Shown here: positions 13,860 through 22,577 of the stretch, piece by piece
Position numbering within the stretch: the stretch's first letter is position 1
Layout: every line of letters begins with the position of its first letter
Source of the DNA: Salana multivorans
Lineage (GTDB): Bacteria > Actinomycetota > Actinomycetes > Actinomycetales > Beutenbergiaceae
Direction: 5' to 3'
DNA length: 64,000 bases
NCBI RefSeq assembly: GCF_003751805.1
Contig: NZ_RKHQ01000001.1
Location: 2,604,001 to 2,668,000, forward strand
Notes under the pieces: generated by a model
What the model was told of the DNA's origin: nothing
The model's input: the letters and a program-made list of their open reading frames with translations, nothing else
Databases searched by the model: none
Made by a program: the position numbers and the translations under genes

Positions 13860-14053
13860 CGCGTCCTCCCGCGCAGGAGCGCTCGGCCGGGGGCCGGACC
13901 CGGGTCGGCCGGACGGCCCGCCCGCGTCCGCTCGCGACGTGCGCCCAGCGACCCGCGCGGTCCGGCCGACCCGACGCGCCCTGTCCGACGCGCCCCCGGC
14001 CTCCCTCCGGACCGTCGTCCCGCGTTCTCCGCCCGACCATCGCGACGCACGAA
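13860..14053. other. Intergenic, no gene seen
   Basis: GC-rich space after the AraC gene with a near-palindrome around GACCCGGGTC (13897-13906), which could terminate transcription. Nothing else is recognisable until the Zur-like promoter that follows. Confidence 0.5.
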
Positions 14054-14082
14054 TTGAGAATGGTTCTCGTTATGGTTAAGGT
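14054..14082 (+). promoter_or_regulatory. Zur-like operator and promoter of the anchored-repeat zinc locus
   Basis: The dyad GAGAA-TGG-TTCTC (14056-14068, inside TGAGAATGGTTCTCG) closely resembles Zur boxes of Actinobacteria, whose consensus is about TGAAAATCATTTTCA. TTGAGA (14054-14059) and TAAGGT (14077-14082) are spaced by exactly 17 nt, so the dyad overlaps the -35 and spacer where repressor binding would block polymerase. The local sequence is strikingly AT-richer than its surroundings. It precedes the surface protein gene by about 150 nt. Fur-family (iron) control cannot be excluded by sequence alone. Confidence 0.8.
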
Positions 14083-14232: not shown

Positions 14233-17200
14233 GTGACGAACTCACCCCTCGAACGCCGGGGGGCGCGGCGACGGTTCGGACCCGTCGTGGCGCTCGCCGG
14301 CATCGTGAGCCTGCTGGGCTCGGCGGTCCTGACGGCCGTCCCCGCCCTCGCCGACGAGCGTCCGCTCACCCTCGACCATGGACACGTCGACGCCTTCAAC
14401 CTGGCCCTCGAGAACGGCCAGCCCGTCCTCAACCTCAAGGAGGACGTGACGGGAAGCCACGTCACCCACCCGCCCGAGGAGGTCAACCTCGTCGTCAAGG
14501 ACGCGGCTCTCACGCAGTTCCCGGGCGACGCCTCCTACGCGGCGTACTTCCCGGAGGAGCTGCTCGGCACGTCGGCCTACTACCTGCCGCTCACCCAGGA
14601 CCCCAACCTCCTCTGGCCCGGCTGGGACAGCCTCCCCCTCGGCTCGCCGTGGAACGACGTCGACATCCACGTCACGGACATCGACGGTCCGGGCGACGTC
14701 TTCCTGTGGTCGCAGGGCTCGTTCGGCGGTAAGCAGCCCCTGCTCACCGGCGGCGGCTACCAGCTGCCCGGCACGATCCACCAGAGCGCGCTGGCCCACG
14801 TCCACGCCAACTGGGCCTTCACCCAGCCCGGCGAGTACCTCGTGACGGCCCACGCGGTGGTGTCCGCCACCTCGACGGGCGCCTCGGCGACGACGAACGA
14901 GGCGACCTACCTCTTCACGGTCGGCACCCAGGCACCGCCGACCGCCGTCACGGTCGAGGGCCTGGCGAACCCCTACCTCCCCGGCGCCACCGTGCAGCTC
15001 GTCGCCCGGCCCGACGTCCCCCTGAAGAACGCGACCTACCGCTGGGAGGCGTCGTTCGACGGGGTGACCTGGGCCGAGGTCCCCGGCCAGAGCGCCGAGG
15101 CCTACGCCGCCATGGTGCAGGACGGGCAGCAGCTGCGCTCCGTGGTCACCGCGCGCGGTGCGACGGTGGTGTCCGAGCCGGTGACGACGACCGAGCTGGC
15201 GGCCGGCAGCGTCACCATCCAGGGGCTGAGCAACCCGTACCTGCCCGGCGCGCCGGTCGAGCTCACCGCCGTCACGGACGCGCAGGTGCCCGGGGCGACC
15301 TACCGGTGGGAGACGTCGAGCGACGGCGCCACCTGGACGACGCTCCAGGACGGCGCCTCGGCCTCGGTCGAGCTGCCGGCGGTGGACGGCGAGCTGGTCC
15401 GCGTCTCCCACGTCTCCGGGGAGCGCACCGTCACCTCCGAGCCGGTGGTCGTCGAGCTGGTCGACCTGCCGACGACGCTGACGCTCACCGGCCTGGCCGA
15501 CTCCTACGCGCCCGGCGAGGACGTCGTCATCGAGGCCAAGCCCGACGTCCTGGTGGACGGCGGCGTCTTCGCCTGGGAGACCTCGGTCGACGGCGCGACG
15601 TGGGAGGTCGTCGCCGGTGCGGCCGGTTCCGTCCTCACCCTCCCCGCCGTCGCCGACCAGCAGGTTCGCGCCACCTACACCGGCTACGGCCAGACCGTCG
15701 TCTCCGACCCGGTCACCGTCACGGTCGCGGCTCCGATCCCGACGTCCGTGTCGATCGCGGGCCTGAAGACCTCTTACGCGGCCGATGAGACCGTCGAGCT
15801 CACCGCGACGCTCGACATGGCTGCCGAGGGGGCGACGTACGCGTGGGAGACCTCGGCCGACGGCGTCGCCTGGCGGGGCGTCGCGGACCGGACCGGTCCG
15901 TCGCTCGCGGTGCCGGCCGTTGACGGTCAGCGCATCCGGGTGACGGCGAGCGGCGCCGGGTGGAGCCTCACGTCGCCCCCGGTCGTCGTGTCCGTCGCCC
16001 CGAGCGCGCCCGAGCAGCCCACCACCGTCTCGATCACGGGCCTGGAGTCCTCCTACGCACCGGGCGACACGGTGCGCCTCACCGCGACGACCGACCGTCC
16101 CGCCGAGGACGCGCGCTACGCCTGGCAGGAGTGGACCGAGCTGGTCGGCTCCTCCGCCTGGGTCGACGTCCCGGGTCGGACCGGGGCGACCTACTCCGGA
16201 GCGGCGACGGACGGCCAGCGGCTCCGCGTCGTCGTCACCGTCGGCGACGCGACCCTGACCTCCGAGCCCGTCACCGTCGTGGTCACCCGGACCCCGCCGG
16301 GACAGTGCTGGGCGCTGGACCTCGACCACGGCCACGTCGACGCGTTCAACGTCCGGCTCGGCGGCACCGACGGCGTCCCGACGCTGACGCTCAAGGAGGA
16401 CGTGACCGGGCAGCACGTCCAGCACGCCCCCGAGGACGTCAACCTCGTCGTCAAGGAGTCGGCGCGCACGACGCTGCCCGCCGTCGCCGGCGTCCCGGAG
16501 CAGCTGCACGGCGCCACCGCCTACTACCTGCCGCTGACGCAGGACCCCGATCTCCTCTGGCCCGGCTGGGACAGCCTCGAGCTGGCCCCGGGCGGCTGGG
16601 AGACGGTTGACATCGACGTCTCGGCGATCGAGGGGCCCGGCCAGGTGTACCTGTGGTCGAGCGGCGGCTTCGGCGGCGCCACCTCGCTGCTGGACGGCGG
16701 CGGCTACCAGCTGCCCGGCACGATCCACCAGAGCGCGCTGGCCCACGTGCACGCGAGCTGGGCGTTCACCGAGCCGGGGGCCTACTACCTCACGGTGACC
16801 GCCACGGCGCACAGGGCGGGCGGGGTGAGCCACACGACCAACACCGGGACCTACCTGTTCACGGTCGGGGACGCCGACCTGCCCGACGACTACCGCGACT
16901 GCACGGCCCCGCCGGCCGTCGACCCGCAGGCTCCGGCCGAGGACGAGCTGACCGAGGCGACGCGCGGCGACGTCACGATCGACCCGTCCCGTGTCCGGGC
17001 CGGCGAGCAGGCGACGGTGTCGCTCGGCTCCGACGGTGGCGGCGCGACGGTGGCGGCCTTCCTGCACTCGGACCCGCTGGCGCTGACCGACGGGTGGACG
17101 ACGGCGGACTCCGACGGCCGGTTCCTCGTCACGGTCCCGCGCTCCGCGGAGCCGGGCGAGCACCGGGTCTCGGTGGTGGACGCGGACAACGAGCTCGTGG

Positions 17201-18231
17201 GCTGGACCGAGCTCACCGTCCTGCCGGCCCGCGACGAGGACCCGTCGCCGACCGACCCGTCGCCGACCGACCCGCCGACGACCGACCCGCCGACGACCGA
17301 CCCCGACCCGAGCCCGTCCGGCAGCGGCGGCACGGGCGGCGGTGGCTCCGGCACGACGGGCAAGGAGATCTGCCTCCCGGTCCCCGCGACCGCGGCGACG
17401 ACCGGCACCACGGGCACCACGCCGTCGGCCACGGGCTCGGTCGTGGTCGGGACGGAGGGCCACTTCGACTTCGGCCCGGTCGTCCAGGACGGCGCGTTCC
17501 AGATCCAGGTGAAGGACGACCGGACCGCGCCGCCCGTGTGGCGCGACCCCGACACCGTGGTGTTCGACCTGGGGACGGCGGCGCTGCGCAAGGCCGCGGA
17601 CATCCCGGCCGAGCTGCAGTTCGTCGCGCCCGCCGGGAAGGACGTCTACATGATCCAGCAGATCCAGGAGGCGGGGGTTCCGTGGCTCGGGTGGAACACC
17701 CAGCACGAGACGATCGTCAACGGGCCGGGCTCGAACGGCGTCACGATGCGGCTGGACAAGGTCGAGGGACCCGGTGAGCTCGCCATCTTCCTCAACGGCA
17801 ACTTCGGCCAGCTCGTGGGCCAGCGGGTCGTGGACACGGTCGGTGGGCCGACCAGCTACACCATCCCGGCCAACACCCACCAGCACGGGAACTGGGTCTT
17901 CACCGAGCCCGGGGTCTACGCCGTGACCTTCACCATGTCGGCCGACGGGCAGTCGGACACGGCGACGCTGCGCTTCGCCGTGGGTCAGGCCGACCCAGCG
18001 GCGGCCGCCGCCCCCGGTGCGGCGACCGGGACCGGCGCGACGCCGGCGGCGGCGTCGGGCACCCAGGGCCGGACGGCCTCCGGCCAGCCGTGCACGCTGC
18101 CCACGACCGGCGTCGACGGTGATCCCGGCGCGCTCGCCGTCATCGGGGTGCTCGCCGTGGTCACCGGGCTCGGTCTCCAGCTCCTCGCTCGCCGGCGGCG
18201 CGCGTCGCTCGGACGCGGGCCGGCGGCCTAG
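14233..18231 (+). CDS. LPTTG-anchored surface protein with three choice-of-anchor M domains
   Basis: A 1332-aa secreted protein. A signal peptide (RRGARRRF, a hydrophobic core, then PALA near residue 41) is followed by an M-type domain at about 45-230. Next are five Ig-like repeats of about 90 residues (235-690), each opening like TVEGLANPYLPG and containing YRWETS-DG-TW. A second M domain spans 695-880, then come a beta-rich segment, a Pro/Thr-rich linker (DPSPTDP repeats, about 1005-1040) and a third M domain (1070-1260). The C-terminus has LPTTG at 1289-1293, a hydrophobic helix and RRRR, a sortase sorting signal. Each M domain has a GH motif (H51, H701, H1077) and an HxH motif before W (189/191, 838/840, 1216/1218). 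It resembles the family I recall as TIGR03773, wall proteins associated with this transporter type. I infer surface zinc capture. GTG 14233 has only a weak upstream site. Confidence 0.85.
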   Translation: MTNSPLERRGARRRFGPVVALAGIVSLLGSAVLTAVPALADERPLTLDHGHVDAFNLALENGQPVLNLKEDVTGSHVTHPPEEVNLVVKDAALTQFPGDASYAAYFPEELLGTSAYYLPLTQDPNLLWPGWDSLPLGSPWNDVDIHVTDIDGPGDVFLWSQGSFGGKQPLLTGGGYQLPGTIHQSALAHVHANWAFTQPGEYLVTAHAVVSATSTGASATTNEATYLFTVGTQAPPTAVTVEGLANPYLPGATVQLVARPDVPLKNATYRWEASFDGVTWAEVPGQSAEAYAAMVQDGQQLRSVVTARGATVVSEPVTTTELAAGSVTIQGLSNPYLPGAPVELTAVTDAQVPGATYRWETSSDGATWTTLQDGASASVELPAVDGELVRVSHVSGERTVTSEPVVVELVDLPTTLTLTGLADSYAPGEDVVIEAKPDVLVDGGVFAWETSVDGATWEVVAGAAGSVLTLPAVADQQVRATYTGYGQTVVSDPVTVTVAAPIPTSVSIAGLKTSYAADETVELTATLDMAAEGATYAWETSADGVAWRGVADRTGPSLAVPAVDGQRIRVTASGAGWSLTSPPVVVSVAPSAPEQPTTVSITGLESSYAPGDTVRLTATTDRPAEDARYAWQEWTELVGSSAWVDVPGRTGATYSGAATDGQRLRVVVTVGDATLTSEPVTVVVTRTPPGQCWALDLDHGHVDAFNVRLGGTDGVPTLTLKEDVTGQHVQHAPEDVNLVVKESARTTLPAVAGVPEQLHGATAYYLPLTQDPDLLWPGWDSLELAPGGWETVDIDVSAIEGPGQVYLWSSGGFGGATSLLDGGGYQLPGTIHQSALAHVHASWAFTEPGAYYLTVTATAHRAGGVSHTTNTGTYLFTVGDADLPDDYRDCTAPPAVDPQAPAEDELTEATRGDVTIDPSRVRAGEQATVSLGSDGGGATVAAFLHSDPLALTDGWTTADSDGRFLVTVPRSAEPGEHRVSVVDADNELVGWTELTVLPARDEDPSPTDPSPTDPPTTDPPTTDPDPSPSGSGGTGGGGSGTTGKEICLPVPATAATTGTTGTTPSATGSVVVGTEGHFDFGPVVQDGAFQIQVKDDRTAPPVWRDPDTVVFDLGTAALRKAADIPAELQFVAPAGKDVYMIQQIQEAGVPWLGWNTQHETIVNGPGSNGVTMRLDKVEGPGELAIFLNGNFGQLVGQRVVDTVGGPTSYTIPANTHQHGNWVFTEPGVYAVTFTMSADGQSDTATLRFAVGQADPAAAAAPGAATGTGATPAAASGTQGRTASGQPCTLPTTGVDGDPGALAVIGVLAVVTGLGLQLLARRRRASLGRGPAA

Positions 18232-18240
18232 CTCAACGGT

Positions 18241-18270
18241 CGCGGGGGTCGCGCACGCGCGGCCCCCGCG
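18241..18270 (+). terminator. Strong intercistronic hairpin after the first zinc-locus gene
   Basis: Arms CGCGGGGG (18241-18248) and CCCCCGCG (18263-18270) are perfectly complementary and enclose a smaller CGCG pair. It sits between the surface-protein stop and the ribosome-binding site of the lipoprotein gene. It could be a partial terminator or mRNA stabiliser giving the surface protein a different expression level from the transporter genes. Confidence 0.6.
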
Positions 18271-18284
18271 GCGGGAGGCTTCTC

Positions 18285-19856
18285 ATGACAGCACGTTCCA
18301 CTGCGCCATCCGGGCGCGTGCGGCGGGGGGTCGCCGCCGCGGTGGCGACGTTCGCCGCCGTCTCGATCGCCGGGTGCGCGAGCCCCCGGACCGACGACGG
18401 CGGCGAGCGCCCGAGCATCGTGACGACGACCGGGATCCTCGCCGACCTGGCCCAGCACGTCGTCGGCGACCGGATGGACGTCCACTCGCTGGTGCCGCCC
18501 GGCGCCGACCCGCACAGCTACGAGCCGTCGCTGCGCGACGTCCGCGACGTGGTCTACGCCGACGCCGCGTTCTCCAACTACCTGCTCCTCGAGGGCCGGG
18601 CGATCATCCGGACGCTGGACGCCAACGTCCAGCCCGACGTCCCCAACGTCTCCCTCGCCGAGGAGGCGGTCAAGTACGCCGCCGAGATCATCCCGCTGGT
18701 GGAGAACGTCTCGCTCGACACCATCTGGCTCGGCATGCGGGTCAGGGGCACCGGCGAGGACCGCGGCGCCGACCGGACCTCGCAGGTCCGGCTGCGAGCG
18801 ACCGCCGTCGAGGGCCCGGGCGAGCTCGTCGCCTACCTCACCGAGACCTTCGGGACGCCGTCGTTCTACATCGACAGCTCCGACGGCATCGGCGACACGG
18901 ACGCGACCTCGCTGCCGCCGGACGCGCACACCCACATGAGCTGGGCCTTCACCGAGCCCGGCGTCTACCGGCTGACGCTGGAGGCCGACCTGCTGCTGGA
19001 GGGCCGGGACCCCGTCGCGCTGGCTCCGGCGGCGACGGTGACCTTCGCGGTCGGCGTCGACCCGTACGCGGAGCTGGGCGAGGACGTCACGGTCCTCGGC
19101 TCCGGGCACGCCGACGTCACGGTCGACCTGGACGAGGGCGAGATCTACCTCTACTCCGACCCGCACGGCGGGGGCGACGCGACCCAGCGGGTCCTGCCGG
19201 CCGACGAGGTCGTCGTCGAGGTGCCGACGAAGGCGCTGCACGAGCTCCCCGCCGGCAGCCAGTACCGCTTCCTCGGTCCGCCGGGCGAGCAGGTCTACCA
19301 GCTCCCGCAGGCGGTCCTCGGCGCGCACGTCCACGGCGAGATCGACCCGCACCTGTGGCAGGACGTCGGCAACGCGCAGGCCTACGTCGAGATCATCCGG
19401 GACACCGTCATCGGGATCGACCCCGAGGGCGCCGACCACTACCGGAGCAACGCGGCCGCGTACCTGCTGGAGCTGGCCGACCTCGACGCCTACGTCCAGG
19501 CGAGGATCGACGACATCCCGCCCTCCCGGCGCCACCTCGTGACCACCCACGACGCCTTCGGGTACCTCGGGTCGGCCTACGGCATCGACATCGCGGGGTT
19601 CGTCACCCCGAACCCGTCGACCGAGCCGAGCATCCAGGAGCGGCGGCGGCTGGTCGAGACGATCCAGAACCTCCACGTCCCCGCCGTCTTCCTCGAGCCC
19701 AACCTGATCGCCAGGTCCAGCACGCTGACCGAGATCGCCGGCGAGCTGGGCGTGCGCGTCTGCCGGATCTACGGCGACGCCTTCGACGACGAGATCACGA
19801 CCTACACGGCGATGATGCGTTTCAACGCGGACTCGCTCCACGACTGCCTTTCCTAG
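18285..19856 (+). CDS. Zinc-type ABC transporter substrate-binding lipoprotein with inserted M-like domain
   Basis: A 523-aa lipoprotein (lipobox SIAGC, Cys31). The flanks are a cluster-9 (ZnuA/TroA) binding protein: TTTGILADLAQHVVGD then DPHSYEP with His77; GEIDPHLWQD with His356; TTHDAFGYLG with His422, the expected zinc ligands. Family members are about 300 aa; the extra about 205 residues (142-350) lie just before GEIDPHLW, where ZnuA proteins carry a His-rich loop. The insert resembles the M domains of the neighbouring surface proteins: VEGPGELVAYL and HTHMSWAFTEPGVY (His215/217) come first, then GSGHADV (His275) and a VYQLPQ segment, i.e. the two halves in reversed order. It fits the family I recall as TIGR03772. 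Good GGGAGG site before ATG 18285. Confidence 0.88.
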   Translation: MTARSTAPSGRVRRGVAAAVATFAAVSIAGCASPRTDDGGERPSIVTTTGILADLAQHVVGDRMDVHSLVPPGADPHSYEPSLRDVRDVVYADAAFSNYLLLEGRAIIRTLDANVQPDVPNVSLAEEAVKYAAEIIPLVENVSLDTIWLGMRVRGTGEDRGADRTSQVRLRATAVEGPGELVAYLTETFGTPSFYIDSSDGIGDTDATSLPPDAHTHMSWAFTEPGVYRLTLEADLLLEGRDPVALAPAATVTFAVGVDPYAELGEDVTVLGSGHADVTVDLDEGEIYLYSDPHGGGDATQRVLPADEVVVEVPTKALHELPAGSQYRFLGPPGEQVYQLPQAVLGAHVHGEIDPHLWQDVGNAQAYVEIIRDTVIGIDPEGADHYRSNAAAYLLELADLDAYVQARIDDIPPSRRHLVTTHDAFGYLGSAYGIDIAGFVTPNPSTEPSIQERRRLVETIQNLHVPAVFLEPNLIARSSTLTEIAGELGVRVCRIYGDAFDDEITTYTAMMRFNADSLHDCLS

Positions 19857-19863
19857 GAGAACC

Positions 19864-20946
19864 GTGCCCCCCGCCACTCGCTCCATCGGCGCGCCCGCCG
19901 CGCTGCTCATCGCGTCCGTCGCCCTGCTCGCGGTCCCGGCCGCCCTGCTCACCGCCCCGGCGAGCGCCGCGCCGGCCGACCCGCTCGTCCAGACCGTCGC
20001 GCCCGACGAGGCGACGGGGGAGGGACGGGTGGTCATCAGCAGCGGCCACGTCGACCTCGGCCCCCGGATGATCGACGGCCGGTGGACGTTGCAGCTGCGC
20101 GACGACACGCTCGCCCCGCCCGTGTGGCGCTCGCTCGACGACGTCGTCCTCCAGCTGCCCGACTCCTCGATCCTGCCCGCGCCCGACGACGTCCAGTTCG
20201 ACTTCATCGACGCCGCCCCGGGCAGCGACGTCTGGGTGATCCCGCAGACGCAGAACACCGCGGTGGTCTGGGCCGGCTGGAACAGCCAGCACCCGTCGGC
20301 GGTCGAGGTGATGGGCGGCGGCATGACGCTGCGCCTGCTCGACGTCGAGGGGCCCGGCCAGTTCACGCTGTTCCTGCAGAGCGGCAACTTCGACCCGGCC
20401 CAGCTCCTGTGGGACTCGGGCGTCGACGGGCCGCAGGACATCTGGGCGCTGACCAACACGCACGTCCACGGCAACTGGGTCTTCACCGAGCCCGGCGTCT
20501 ACCTCCTGGACGTCGAGGTGCTGGCCGACCTGGCCGACGGGACGGTGGCGAGCGACCGGGAGACGCTGCGGATCGCGGTCAGCGACGCGACGGACCCCGA
20601 GGACGCCTTCGGGGCCGGTCTCCCCGGGGCGGACGAGGCCGGGTCGGGGTCGCCCGGCCGGCCGACCGACGGCGCGTCGGGGGCCTCGGGGTCGACGGAC
20701 GCGGGCGACGCCACCGGGTCCGGAACGGACGACCCGGCATCGGCGTCCTCCGCGTCGGCGCCCTCCGCCGAGGACGTGTCCGATGGGAGGTCCGACGGTG
20801 CCTCCGGTGTGCCGACGGCCGCGGTCATCGCGGGCGGTGCCGTCGTGCTCGTCGGCGCGGCCGTCGCGGCGAGCGCGGCGCGCGCCCGCGGGGCGCGGCG
20901 TCAGGTCGAGGGTGACGTCGAGCCGGACGGGGACCCGCGTGAGTGA
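19864..20946 (+). CDS. Second surface protein of the zinc locus, single M domain, C-terminal membrane anchor
   Basis: A 360-aa exported protein. A signal peptide ends near residue 35 (APASA). One M-type domain (about 50-240) has GHVDLGP (His62) and THVHGNWVFTEPGVY (His200/202), most like the third domain of the large anchored protein. A Ser/Gly/Asp-rich, low-complexity stalk (about 250-315) leads to a single transmembrane helix (AAVIAGGAVVLVGAAVAASAA) and a basic/acidic tail. There is no LPXTG, so it is membrane- rather than wall-anchored. I infer a relay between the wall protein and the lipoprotein. GTG 19864 follows AGGAGA. The ATPase gene starts inside its 3' end. Confidence 0.82.
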   Translation: MPPATRSIGAPAALLIASVALLAVPAALLTAPASAAPADPLVQTVAPDEATGEGRVVISSGHVDLGPRMIDGRWTLQLRDDTLAPPVWRSLDDVVLQLPDSSILPAPDDVQFDFIDAAPGSDVWVIPQTQNTAVVWAGWNSQHPSAVEVMGGGMTLRLLDVEGPGQFTLFLQSGNFDPAQLLWDSGVDGPQDIWALTNTHVHGNWVFTEPGVYLLDVEVLADLADGTVASDRETLRIAVSDATDPEDAFGAGLPGADEAGSGSPGRPTDGASGASGSTDAGDATGSGTDDPASASSASAPSAEDVSDGRSDGASGVPTAAVIAGGAVVLVGAAVAASAARARGARRQVEGDVEPDGDPRE

Positions 20947-21703
20947 GCCGGAGCTGCGCGTCGAGGACCTGGCCGTCGAGCTCGGCGGGCGCGAGGTCCT
21001 GCGTGAGGTCACGCTCGAGGTCTCGGGCGGCGAGCTGGTCGGCCTCATCGGCCCCAACGGCGCAGGCAAGACGACCCTGCTGCGCTCGACCCTCGGGCTC
21101 GTCCGGGTGCGCTCGGGCACGATCCGCGTGTCCGGCCGGACCCCGAACCTCGGGCGCCGCAGCGTCGGCTACGTCCCGCAGCGGCACGAGTTCGCGTGGG
21201 ACTTCCCGATCAGCGTCGAGGACGTGGTGCTCTCCGGGCGGGTCGGCGTCATCGGCTGGGGTCGTCGCCCCGGCGTCGAGGACTTCCGCGCGGCCCGCGA
21301 CGCCCTGGAGCGCGTCCAGATGCACCACCTGCGCGCGCGGCCGGTCGGCCAGCTCTCGGGCGGTCAGCGTCAGCGCGTCCTCGTCGCGCGGGCGCTGGCC
21401 CTGCGGCCGCGGCTCCTCCTGCTCGACGAGCCGTTCACGGGGCTGGACATCCCGACCCAGGAGCTGCTCATGGACCTGTTCACCTCGCTGGCGGGCGAGG
21501 GTCGGGCCCTCCTCATGACCACCCACGACCTCGCCGGAGCGCTCGTGAGCTGCGACCGCCTCTACCTCGTCAACCGGAGCGTCGTCGCCGCCGGTCGGCC
21601 CGAGGACCTCACCGACCCCCGGATCTGGATCGACGCCTTCGGCTTCCGGCCCGGGTCCCCGCTGCTGACCACGATCGGGGTGACCGGTGCTGACGTTCGG
21701 TGA
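20939..21703 (+). CDS. Zinc-type ABC transporter ATP-binding protein (anchored-repeat type)
   Basis: The 254-aa ATPase powers import through the adjacent permease. It has Walker A GPNGAGKTT, the Q-loop region GYVPQRHEFAWDFPI, signature LSGGQRQRV, Walker B LLLLDEPFTGLD and switch TTHDLAG. This matches ZnuC/MntB-like cluster-9 ATPases. GTG 20939 overlaps the previous gene's stop (GTGAGTGA). It matches the subgroup I recall as TIGR03771, defined by association with anchored repeat proteins. Confidence 0.93.
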   Translation: MSEPELRVEDLAVELGGREVLREVTLEVSGGELVGLIGPNGAGKTTLLRSTLGLVRVRSGTIRVSGRTPNLGRRSVGYVPQRHEFAWDFPISVEDVVLSGRVGVIGWGRRPGVEDFRAARDALERVQMHHLRARPVGQLSGGQRQRVLVARALALRPRLLLLDEPFTGLDIPTQELLMDLFTSLAGEGRALLMTTHDLAGALVSCDRLYLVNRSVVAAGRPEDLTDPRIWIDAFGFRPGSPLLTTIGVTGADVR

Positions 21704-22577
21704 GTTCCTCCAGGACCTGGCCAACCCGATGCTGTCCTTCCTACCGAAGGCGCTGCTCATCGCCGTGATGTCGAGCGTGATCTGCGGCGTCATCGGCTGC
21801 CACGTCGTGCTGCGCGGGATGGCCTTCATCGGGGACGCGGTGGCCCACGCCGTCTTCCCCGGTCTCGCGGTCGCGTTCGTCCTGCAGGGCTCGCTCGTGC
21901 TGGGCGGCATGGTCGCGGGCGTCGTCACGGCGATCCTGGTCGCGGTGTTCTCGCAGAACCGGCGGCTCAAGGAGGACTCCGTCATCGGGATCTTCTTCGC
22001 CGCGGCGTTCGCGCTCGGCATCGTCGTGATCTCCCGCTCGCCCGGCTACTCGGGATCGCTGCAGAGCTTCCTGTTCGGCTCGATCACGGGCATCCCGGAC
22101 TCCGACCTCTACGTCGTGGCGATCGCGGGCGCCGTGCTGCTCCTGCTCTGCTTCCTCCTGCACTCCCAGCTCGTCGCCGTCAGCCTCGACCGCGAGATGG
22201 CCCGGGCGACGGGGCTGCCCGTGTTCGGCCTCGACCTCGTGCTCTACGTCATGGTCACGGTCGCCGTCGTCGTCTCCGTCCAGACGATCGGGAACATCCT
22301 GGTGCTCGCGCTGCTGGTGACGCCGGCGGCGACGGCGCGGCTGCTCACCGACCGCCTCGGCGTCATGATGGCGCTGGCGCCGGCCATCGGCGCGGTCTGC
22401 GCCGTCGTCGGGCTCTACCTGTCCTGGTCCGTCGACCTGCCGACGGGCGGCACCATCGTGCTGACCGCGACGGCGGTGTTCCTCCTCGTCTGGCTGCTCG
22501 CGCCGCGGCACGGGCTGCTCGGTCGGTACCTCGCGCGGCGGGCCGCACCGCGGGAGGCACTCCGTCGGGCGGCCTGA
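21687..22577 (+). CDS. Zinc-type ABC transporter permease (anchored-repeat type)
   Basis: A 296-aa ABC-3 family integral membrane permease with about eight hydrophobic helices (first LPKALLIAVMSSVICGVIGC, last LTATAVFLLVWLLA). It contains family segments VVLRGMAFIGDAVAHAVFPGLA and TIGNILVLALLVTPAATARLL, characteristic of ZnuB/TroC proteins. GTG 21687 overlaps the ATPase gene by 17 nt, so the two are tightly coupled. It ends the locus. The subgroup would be TIGR03770 from memory. Confidence 0.93.
   Translation: MLTFGEFLQDLANPMLSFLPKALLIAVMSSVICGVIGCHVVLRGMAFIGDAVAHAVFPGLAVAFVLQGSLVLGGMVAGVVTAILVAVFSQNRRLKEDSVIGIFFAAAFALGIVVISRSPGYSGSLQSFLFGSITGIPDSDLYVVAIAGAVLLLLCFLLHSQLVAVSLDREMARATGLPVFGLDLVLYVMVTVAVVVSVQTIGNILVLALLVTPAATARLLTDRLGVMMALAPAIGAVCAVVGLYLSWSVDLPTGGTIVLTATAVFLLVWLLAPRHGLLGRYLARRAAPREALRRAA

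Follow-up and report, generated by a model that had tools for sequence, protein, structure and literature searches.

We analysed 64,000 nucleotides of the Salana multivorans genome (assembly GCF_003751805.1, contig NZ_RKHQ01000001.1, positions 2,604,001 to 2,668,000 of the forward strand; hereafter the window), focusing on a transporter operon at window positions 14233–22577 whose products carry five copies of the domain that NCBI calls choice-of-anchor M (profile NF038134; hereafter the M domain). The M domain is probably a zinc module of a Zur-regulated importer, in which copies held at the wall and the membrane would pass zinc to a circularly permuted copy built into the substrate-binding receptor. 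A first-pass annotation had pointed to three recurrent histidines as a candidate metal site in a domain with no assigned function. The observation is real and the metal-site reading is largely right and already largely published: a zinc module with the motifs HxD and HxH was described by Peng, Lyman and Schmitt for the znu cluster of Corynebacterium diphtheriae (PMC12445094, 2025), and the statement that the domain lacks a function is out of date. The present analysis adds a Zur-type operator before the operon, the permutation of the receptor copy and its location at the position of the histidine-rich loop. A family named by NCBI only for its anchor becomes a testable zinc module beyond the single pathogen for which we met a study of it.

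Conserved histidines and aspartate of the M domain

NF038134 matched three stretches of the first protein of the operon, one of a second surface protein and two of the receptor lipoprotein, and these are all six of the M-domain matches in the whole genome. The two surface proteins and their domains are as follows:

14233..18231, + strand: wall protein, 1332 residues, GTG start (TIGR03773, 473 bits; NF038134, 409.5 bits, 3 stretches)
14353..14928, + strand: M domain 1 of the wall protein (His51, Asp53, His189, His191)
16303..16875, + strand: M domain 2 of the wall protein (His701, Asp703, His838, His840)
17434..17997, + strand: M domain 3 of the wall protein (His1077, Asp1079, His1216, His1218)
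19864..20946, + strand: membrane-tailed surface protein (the second surface protein), one M domain, in the ZnuE slot (NF038134, 183.4 bits)
20014..20589, + strand: M domain of the second surface protein (His62, Asp64, His200, His202)

Against a cut-off of 55 bits, the four unpermuted domains scored 185.6, 152.7, 144.5 and 142.7 bits, and the two pieces of the permuted domain 61.2 and 33.5 bits, the second lying under the cut-off. The residue numbers of the first-pass annotation are correct in all three proteins, with GH at His51, 701, 1077, 62 and 275, and HxH-x2-W-x-F-T-x-P-G in all five M-type domains at His189/191, 838/840, 1216/1218, 200/202 and 215/217. GH is indeed conserved but is better written HxD (GH-x-D, with Asp64 in the second surface protein). 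HxD and HxH lie ~150 residues apart, as in the motif of PMC12445094, and in the receptor HxH precedes HxD, reversing the order seen in the other M domains.

We observed family-wide conservation of this motif: 117 of 121 distinct full-length M domains, with a median pairwise identity of 32%, keep all three histidines and the aspartate. In the numbering of the second surface protein, H62 is retained in 117 domains, D64 in 118, H200 in 117 and H202 in 118, in contrast to H143, the fourth histidine of that protein, which is unconserved. The set comprises 4 domains from the window, 84 from the named loci L001–L019 and 33 from further loci, and was reduced from 242 profile hits in L001–L066 by removing hits that covered fewer than 170 of the 191 positions, duplicates arising where loci overlap and the copies of the window domains retrieved from the S. 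multivorans genome itself. The collecting profile was built from the four window domains, and motif-less domains may be under-counted. Loci L001–L019 were retrieved with peptide patterns taken from the second surface protein, and one of these patterns, NTHVHGNW, contains HxH; when the 20 domains encoded by this type of gene (in the window and the 19 loci) are set aside, all four residues are kept in 97 of 101.

The four exceptional domains (two in L009, one in L003 and one in L058) read SEDR, --RH, EDRV and --ES, with HxD gapped in two and one of the four residues retained in two. Each is hit in both motifs, as expected of a joint site. These degenerate domains, at L009:3431-3979, L009:4733-5251, L003:13754-14290 and in L058, are perhaps spacers. 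Direct-coupling analysis ranked H62–H202 ninth and H62–H200 eleventh, a weak result (140 rows, effective number 84) that adds little to the pattern of loss, since the pairs rank high because the four domains lost them together.

Residues 40–250 of the second surface protein were modelled by AlphaFold with a mean predicted local distance difference test (pLDDT) score of 93.8. The structure alignment held 73 rows, 4 of them from the window, with 15 of the 84 named-locus domains excluded. A Foldseek search with the M domain returned no match at E ≤ 0.001, and VIA-align gave FmlH (Z 6.2), laccase (6.0) and nitrite reductase (5.8), all below the level of trust advised for the tool. Fold kinship was not drawn from these matches, whose Z scores are too low, and the absent Foldseek match does not show a new fold.

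A permuted M domain at the loop position of the receptor

The third M-type protein is the receptor, which has the following parts:

18285..19856, + strand: ZnuA-class substrate-binding lipoprotein (the receptor) with an inserted M domain (TIGR03772, 732 bits; PF01297, 218.6 bits)
18693..19067, + strand: C-terminal half of the M domain, which comes first (HxH, His215/217; profile positions 79–185)
19068..19325, + strand: N-terminal half of the M domain, which comes second (HxD, His275 and Asp277; profile positions 2–75)
19326..19355, + strand: HVHGEIDPHL, immediately after the insert (His348/350 and the presumed receptor ligand His356)

The PF01297 score stands against a Pfam cut-off of 29 and places the protein in the ZnuA class; its best Foldseek matches are MntA, AztC and their kin, the metal receptors expected. 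Judged by the order of its profile matches, the insert is a circularly permuted M domain with its halves swapped and a break at profile positions 75|79. NF038134 matched the window receptor at positions 77–184 first and 2–73 second, and the same swapped order was observed in the receptors of M-positive genomes (42–77 to 168–184, then 1–2 to 73–75). In native order, all 19 receptor inserts gave two hits, 79–185 followed by 2–75 (3–75 in two), while moving the second piece in front yielded a single whole-profile hit in all 19, 5 to 9 bits over the native total. None of these 19 permuted domains departs from HxH or HxD. The underlying alignment was confined to the window and 18 of the 19 named loci, leaving aside L016, whose frame reads into the next gene, and the receptors of the further genomes.

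In a tree of 107 domains, compared after reordering, the 19 receptor copies formed one group with 100/100 support, which makes a single permutation the simplest account of the sequences. The membrane-slot domains fall just short of a single group (2 changes; united in 30% of bootstrap trees). PMC12445094 notes the motifs of C. diphtheriae ZnuA as being "in reverse order", and its main text has no words starting with permut, loop, insert or relay. Word searches of the open-licence PubMed Central literature brought up no publication that appears to deal with the permutation or its place.

After the insert, the receptor continues with AVLGAHVHGEIDPHLW. The receptor-core profile aligns HVHGEIDPHLW with HHHGDFNMHLW of Escherichia coli ZnuA, the end of its histidine-rich loop, so that, by this alignment, the M domain stands where zinc-binding ZnuA proteins carry that loop. 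The N-terminal border of the insert is less exact, as no profile alignment to ZnuA spans that side. In Citrobacter koseri ZnuA, the loop comprises residues 124–143 and ends four residues before the ligand His147 (PMC8900738). By analogy, His77, His356, His422 and Asp498 are the presumed ligands of the high-affinity site; the three histidines, together with His348/350, are invariant in 19 of 19 receptors. For the complete receptor, AlphaFold gave a model of intermediate confidence (pLDDT 77.5, predicted template modelling score 0.71, 19 rows).

The function of the histidine-rich loop is termed enigmatic in PMC8900738, where a zinc-chaperone role is proposed, and a permuted copy that replaces the loop offers a structural clue to it. 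The loop is disordered in crystals; a presumably folded domain in its place could make a role in metal hand-over visible.

Probable Zur-type control and a proposed zinc importer

The operon appears, from the sequence upstream of it, to be regulated by Zur. The putative operator and the last two genes of the operon are:

14052..14072, no strand assigned: Zur-type operator (AATTGAGAATGGTTCTCGTTA), 160 bp 5' of the GTG of the first gene, found by matrix and pattern
20783..21703 (open reading frame as listed), + strand: ATP-binding cassette (ABC) ATPase (TIGR03771, 354 bits, cut-off 268.8); by eye, the true start is probably near 20939
21687..22577, + strand: ABC-3 permease (TIGR03770, 460.5 bits, cut-off 296.8; PF00950)

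Using a 21-mer matrix made from four published Corynebacterium glutamicum Zur sites (PMC2823685), we obtained 18.0 bits for 14052–14072, the runner-up within the 64 kb scoring 6.95. The pattern TGANAATNNTTNTCA, with one mismatch allowed, matched once in the window and in 0 of 100 shuffles; genome-wide, it occurred at nine places, against none on the forward and one on the reverse strand for a reversed-pattern control. Five of the nine boxes adjoin zinc genes or the operon itself, namely the gene of ribosomal protein L28 with a divergent CobW_C protein, two ZnuA-class receptors, an AztD-like protein and the operon at 14233–22577. The sole FUR-family match of the genome, a candidate Zur, lies ~2 kb from one of the two box-adjacent receptors. 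The AztD-like protein (G000:C1:1157119, L073:1543-2919) has a start very rich in His and Asp, lies downstream of its box and scores 313.9 bits, under its cut-off of 400; S. multivorans thus seems to own several routes of zinc uptake.

Across the 19 related loci, 15 of the 20 boxes of at least 12.5 bits fall at M-domain gene starts, a zone making up 12.4% of the sequence (binomial 2e-10, uncorrected for base composition, intergenic DNA being A+T-richer than coding DNA); permuted-domain receptor genes were counted among the M-domain genes. Twelve of the 19 loci have a strong box in the zone. With a 15-mer matrix the window box scored 12.83, a value within reach of random sequence (57 Markov copies of L001–L019: mean best score 8.22, standard deviation 1.96, largest 13.56), and the case for the operator therefore rests on the 21-mer matrix, the one-mismatch pattern and the genome-wide pattern count.

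By profile membership the operon is the "anchored repeat" ABC system of NCBI, with all four models above their cut-offs: TIGR03770 (460.5 bits against 296.8), TIGR03771 (354.2 against 268.8), TIGR03772 (732.4 against 350.45) and TIGR03773 (473.4 against 190.3). The second surface protein falls under the TIGR03773 cut-off (170.4 vs 190.3). At its C-terminus the wall protein shows, on inspection by eye, a sortase signal made up of LPTTG, a hydrophobic stretch and RRRR, and sortase domains were matched twice in the genome. The tail of the second surface protein, likewise judged by eye, has a hydrophobic stretch and basic residues but no LPTTG-like motif. Ig-like spacer repeats separate M domains 1 and 2 of the wall protein and are likely a stalk; we counted five by eye (SITGLxSSYAPGDTV-like) at window positions 14930–16300.

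The gene order receptor, membrane M protein, ATPase and permease is that of the C. diphtheriae znu cluster (ZnuA, ZnuE, ZnuC, ZnuB, ZnuF, ZnuG, CmrA, CmrA2), with the same ABC subunit families by name, the same motif spacing and the same reversal in the receptor. There, dip0438, dip0440 and dip0441, whose annotated names correspond to TIGR03772, TIGR03771 and TIGR03770, are Zur-repressed (PMC6711530); Zur control is thus shown for C. diphtheriae, whereas in Salana it is predicted from the operator. The Salana operon differs in beginning with one wall protein of three M domains and Ig-like spacers, and C. diphtheriae has in addition a second operon, znuF-445. HxD and HxH are common to ZnuE, ZnuF, ZnuG, CmrA and CmrA2, and lie close together in AlphaFold DB models of ZnuE and ZnuG (PMC12445094). 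According to the same work, the melting of ZnuE, ZnuF and ZnuG shifts with zinc, low-zinc growth needs znuE, for which a triple-His mutant fails to complement, and triple-His ZnuG no longer limits growth.

A zinc site is the best reading of the motif, because its residues are conserved as a unit, losses strike both halves, the operator is of Zur type, the ABC partners are of zinc type and the published work concerns zinc. As a three-histidine site it needs amending, as the ligands would include the aspartate. In PMC12445094, ZnuE(3xA) still responded to zinc, and the authors consider the in vitro role of the histidines not settled. The metal is most likely zinc; its binding by the window domains and the hand-over steps are what we infer. 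In the proposed mechanism, HxD near the start and HxH near the end of the domain would make up the site, and every extracytoplasmic part would carry the module: the wall protein three, the membrane-tailed protein one and the receptor one, permuted. When zinc is scarce, copies at the wall and the membrane would catch it and pass it inwards, the permuted copy would load the adjoining high-affinity site, and the ABC permease would import zinc from there.

Distribution, proposed hand-over and alternatives

M domains occur in 9 of 59 genomes (S. multivorans and relatives), and TIGR03772 is above cut-off in exactly these nine. Of 396 genomes sampled evenly across the phylum, four have M domains, S. 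multivorans included; TIGR03772 is above cut-off in the M-positive G268 and G299, and in 0 of 20 M-negative genomes, taken as listed, not at random, from 392. Among the 19 loci (many of whose frames were read stop to stop and so begin too early), an L[AP]xTG-tailed M-domain protein is present in 16 (absent from L005, L008 and L018) and a membrane-tailed protein, by hydropathy, in all 19, with LATTG inside the hydrophobic stretch in L015 and L018. Anchor-less proteins ending in the M domain were found in 13 of the 19 loci, 11 of these having two such genes. These short proteins of L006, L007 and L009–L019 (for example L011:10406-10960 and L011:11041-11595) have a signal-like start and one C-terminal M domain, and are possible secreted zinc carriers.

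We tentatively extend the hand-over mechanism, at somewhat less than even confidence, to an actinobacterial zinc relay with one domain per station (secreted, wall, membrane and permuted receptor copy), in which zinc would move between homologous HxD/HxH sites and a permutation made once would have turned the receptor copy into a loading arm. The haem relay of NEAT domains (Isd) likewise uses one domain type at wall, membrane and receptor stations; it differs in carrying haem instead of zinc, and the NEAT domain is not known as an insert of ZnuA-class receptors. AdcA (PMC7858048) resembles the Salana receptor in being helped by an accessory domain and a histidine-rich loop under zinc restriction, but its extra domain is C-terminal, whereas in Salana a beta-rich, circularly permuted domain is inserted at the loop position. 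In the AztC/AztD system (PMC6689063), AztD gives zinc to the receptor AztC, whose loop and its three histidines are needed; AztD is of a different family, its likeness in Salana being encoded elsewhere in the genome, and the Salana partner would be homologous to a domain within the receptor itself. Streptococcal polyhistidine triad proteins with AdcAII are also surface zinc proteins proposed to feed a receptor, but carry an HxxHxH motif and are described as distinct in sequence (both per PMC12445094).

Several observations weigh against the proposed mechanism as a whole. Four of the nine Zur-type boxes have no evident zinc gene beside them, adjoining an ArsR/SmtB regulator, two methyltransferase-like genes and a MelR-like/alpha-galactosidase pair, and the zone is devoid of strong boxes in 7 of the 19 loci; the contigs of L008, L012 and L018 begin so near the first gene that they may not include the promoter. 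An M domain is also present in G279, where no permuted receptor scores above cut-off. In C. diphtheriae, deletion of znuA had a modest effect, and ZnuF and ZnuG are dispensable for growth and harmful when the transporter is absent, data that sequestration fits as well as hand-over; zinc still shifts the melting of ZnuE(3xA), and stability is reduced in the triple mutants (PMC12445094). 

The ZnuF and ZnuG data favour the strongest alternative, that the wall and membrane domains store, buffer or withhold zinc from competitors and that the receptor copy alone aids import. The discussion of PMC12445094 offers sequestration, storage and facilitated transport side by side, and the anchor-less proteins could simply be shed. 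However, the membrane copy ZnuE and its histidines are required for low-zinc growth, and the receptor itself contains this domain next to its metal site; we regard storage as possible, if unlikely.

ZnuE(3xA), with its lower stability and its persisting zinc shift, leaves room for a second site or for a structural role of the histidines. A structural role is also favoured by W205, F207, G211 and Y213, whose conservation is close to that of the motif, and by the loss of W136 from the four exceptional domains. Hydrogen bonds of the His and Asp would in that case hold the start and the end of the beta-rich domain together, with zinc bound elsewhere or weakly. We consider this unlikely, as the four potential ligands are retained in permuted and unpermuted domains alike, the genes lie in a zinc context, and the triple-His mutants of ZnuE and ZnuG lose their effect in vivo (PMC12445094).

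It is less probable still that the site serves manganese, iron or copper. The best solved-structure sequence match of the receptor is named manganese-binding MntA, and the M domain aligned with laccases and copper nitrite reductases in VIA-align (Z 5.3–6.0), which may reflect a common arrangement only. The operator and the neighbouring genes argue for zinc instead, as does the His of the receptor motif THDAFGY, a position occupied by Glu in manganese receptors of the PsaA type. The C. diphtheriae system, too, shows zinc phenotypes (PMC12445094). That the surface proteins are adhesins whose histidines bind a host or mineral surface, as wall anchoring, the Ig-like spacers and a weak resemblance in fold to the lectin domains of FmlH/FimH (Z at most 6.2) might suggest, is very improbable given that the receptor contains the same domain and that, among the 59 genomes searched, the permuted receptor accompanies the M domain in all nine that have one.

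Two further observations concern genes outside the operon. The M domain of G279, which belongs to another class of the phylum, has intact HxD and HxH motifs and lies in a 697-residue protein (L078:4769-6862) with a long, seemingly repetitive N-terminal part. The methyltransferase-like genes beside Zur-type boxes are at G000:C1:471262 and C1:1217526 (L072 and L074), one frame having been read by eye only.

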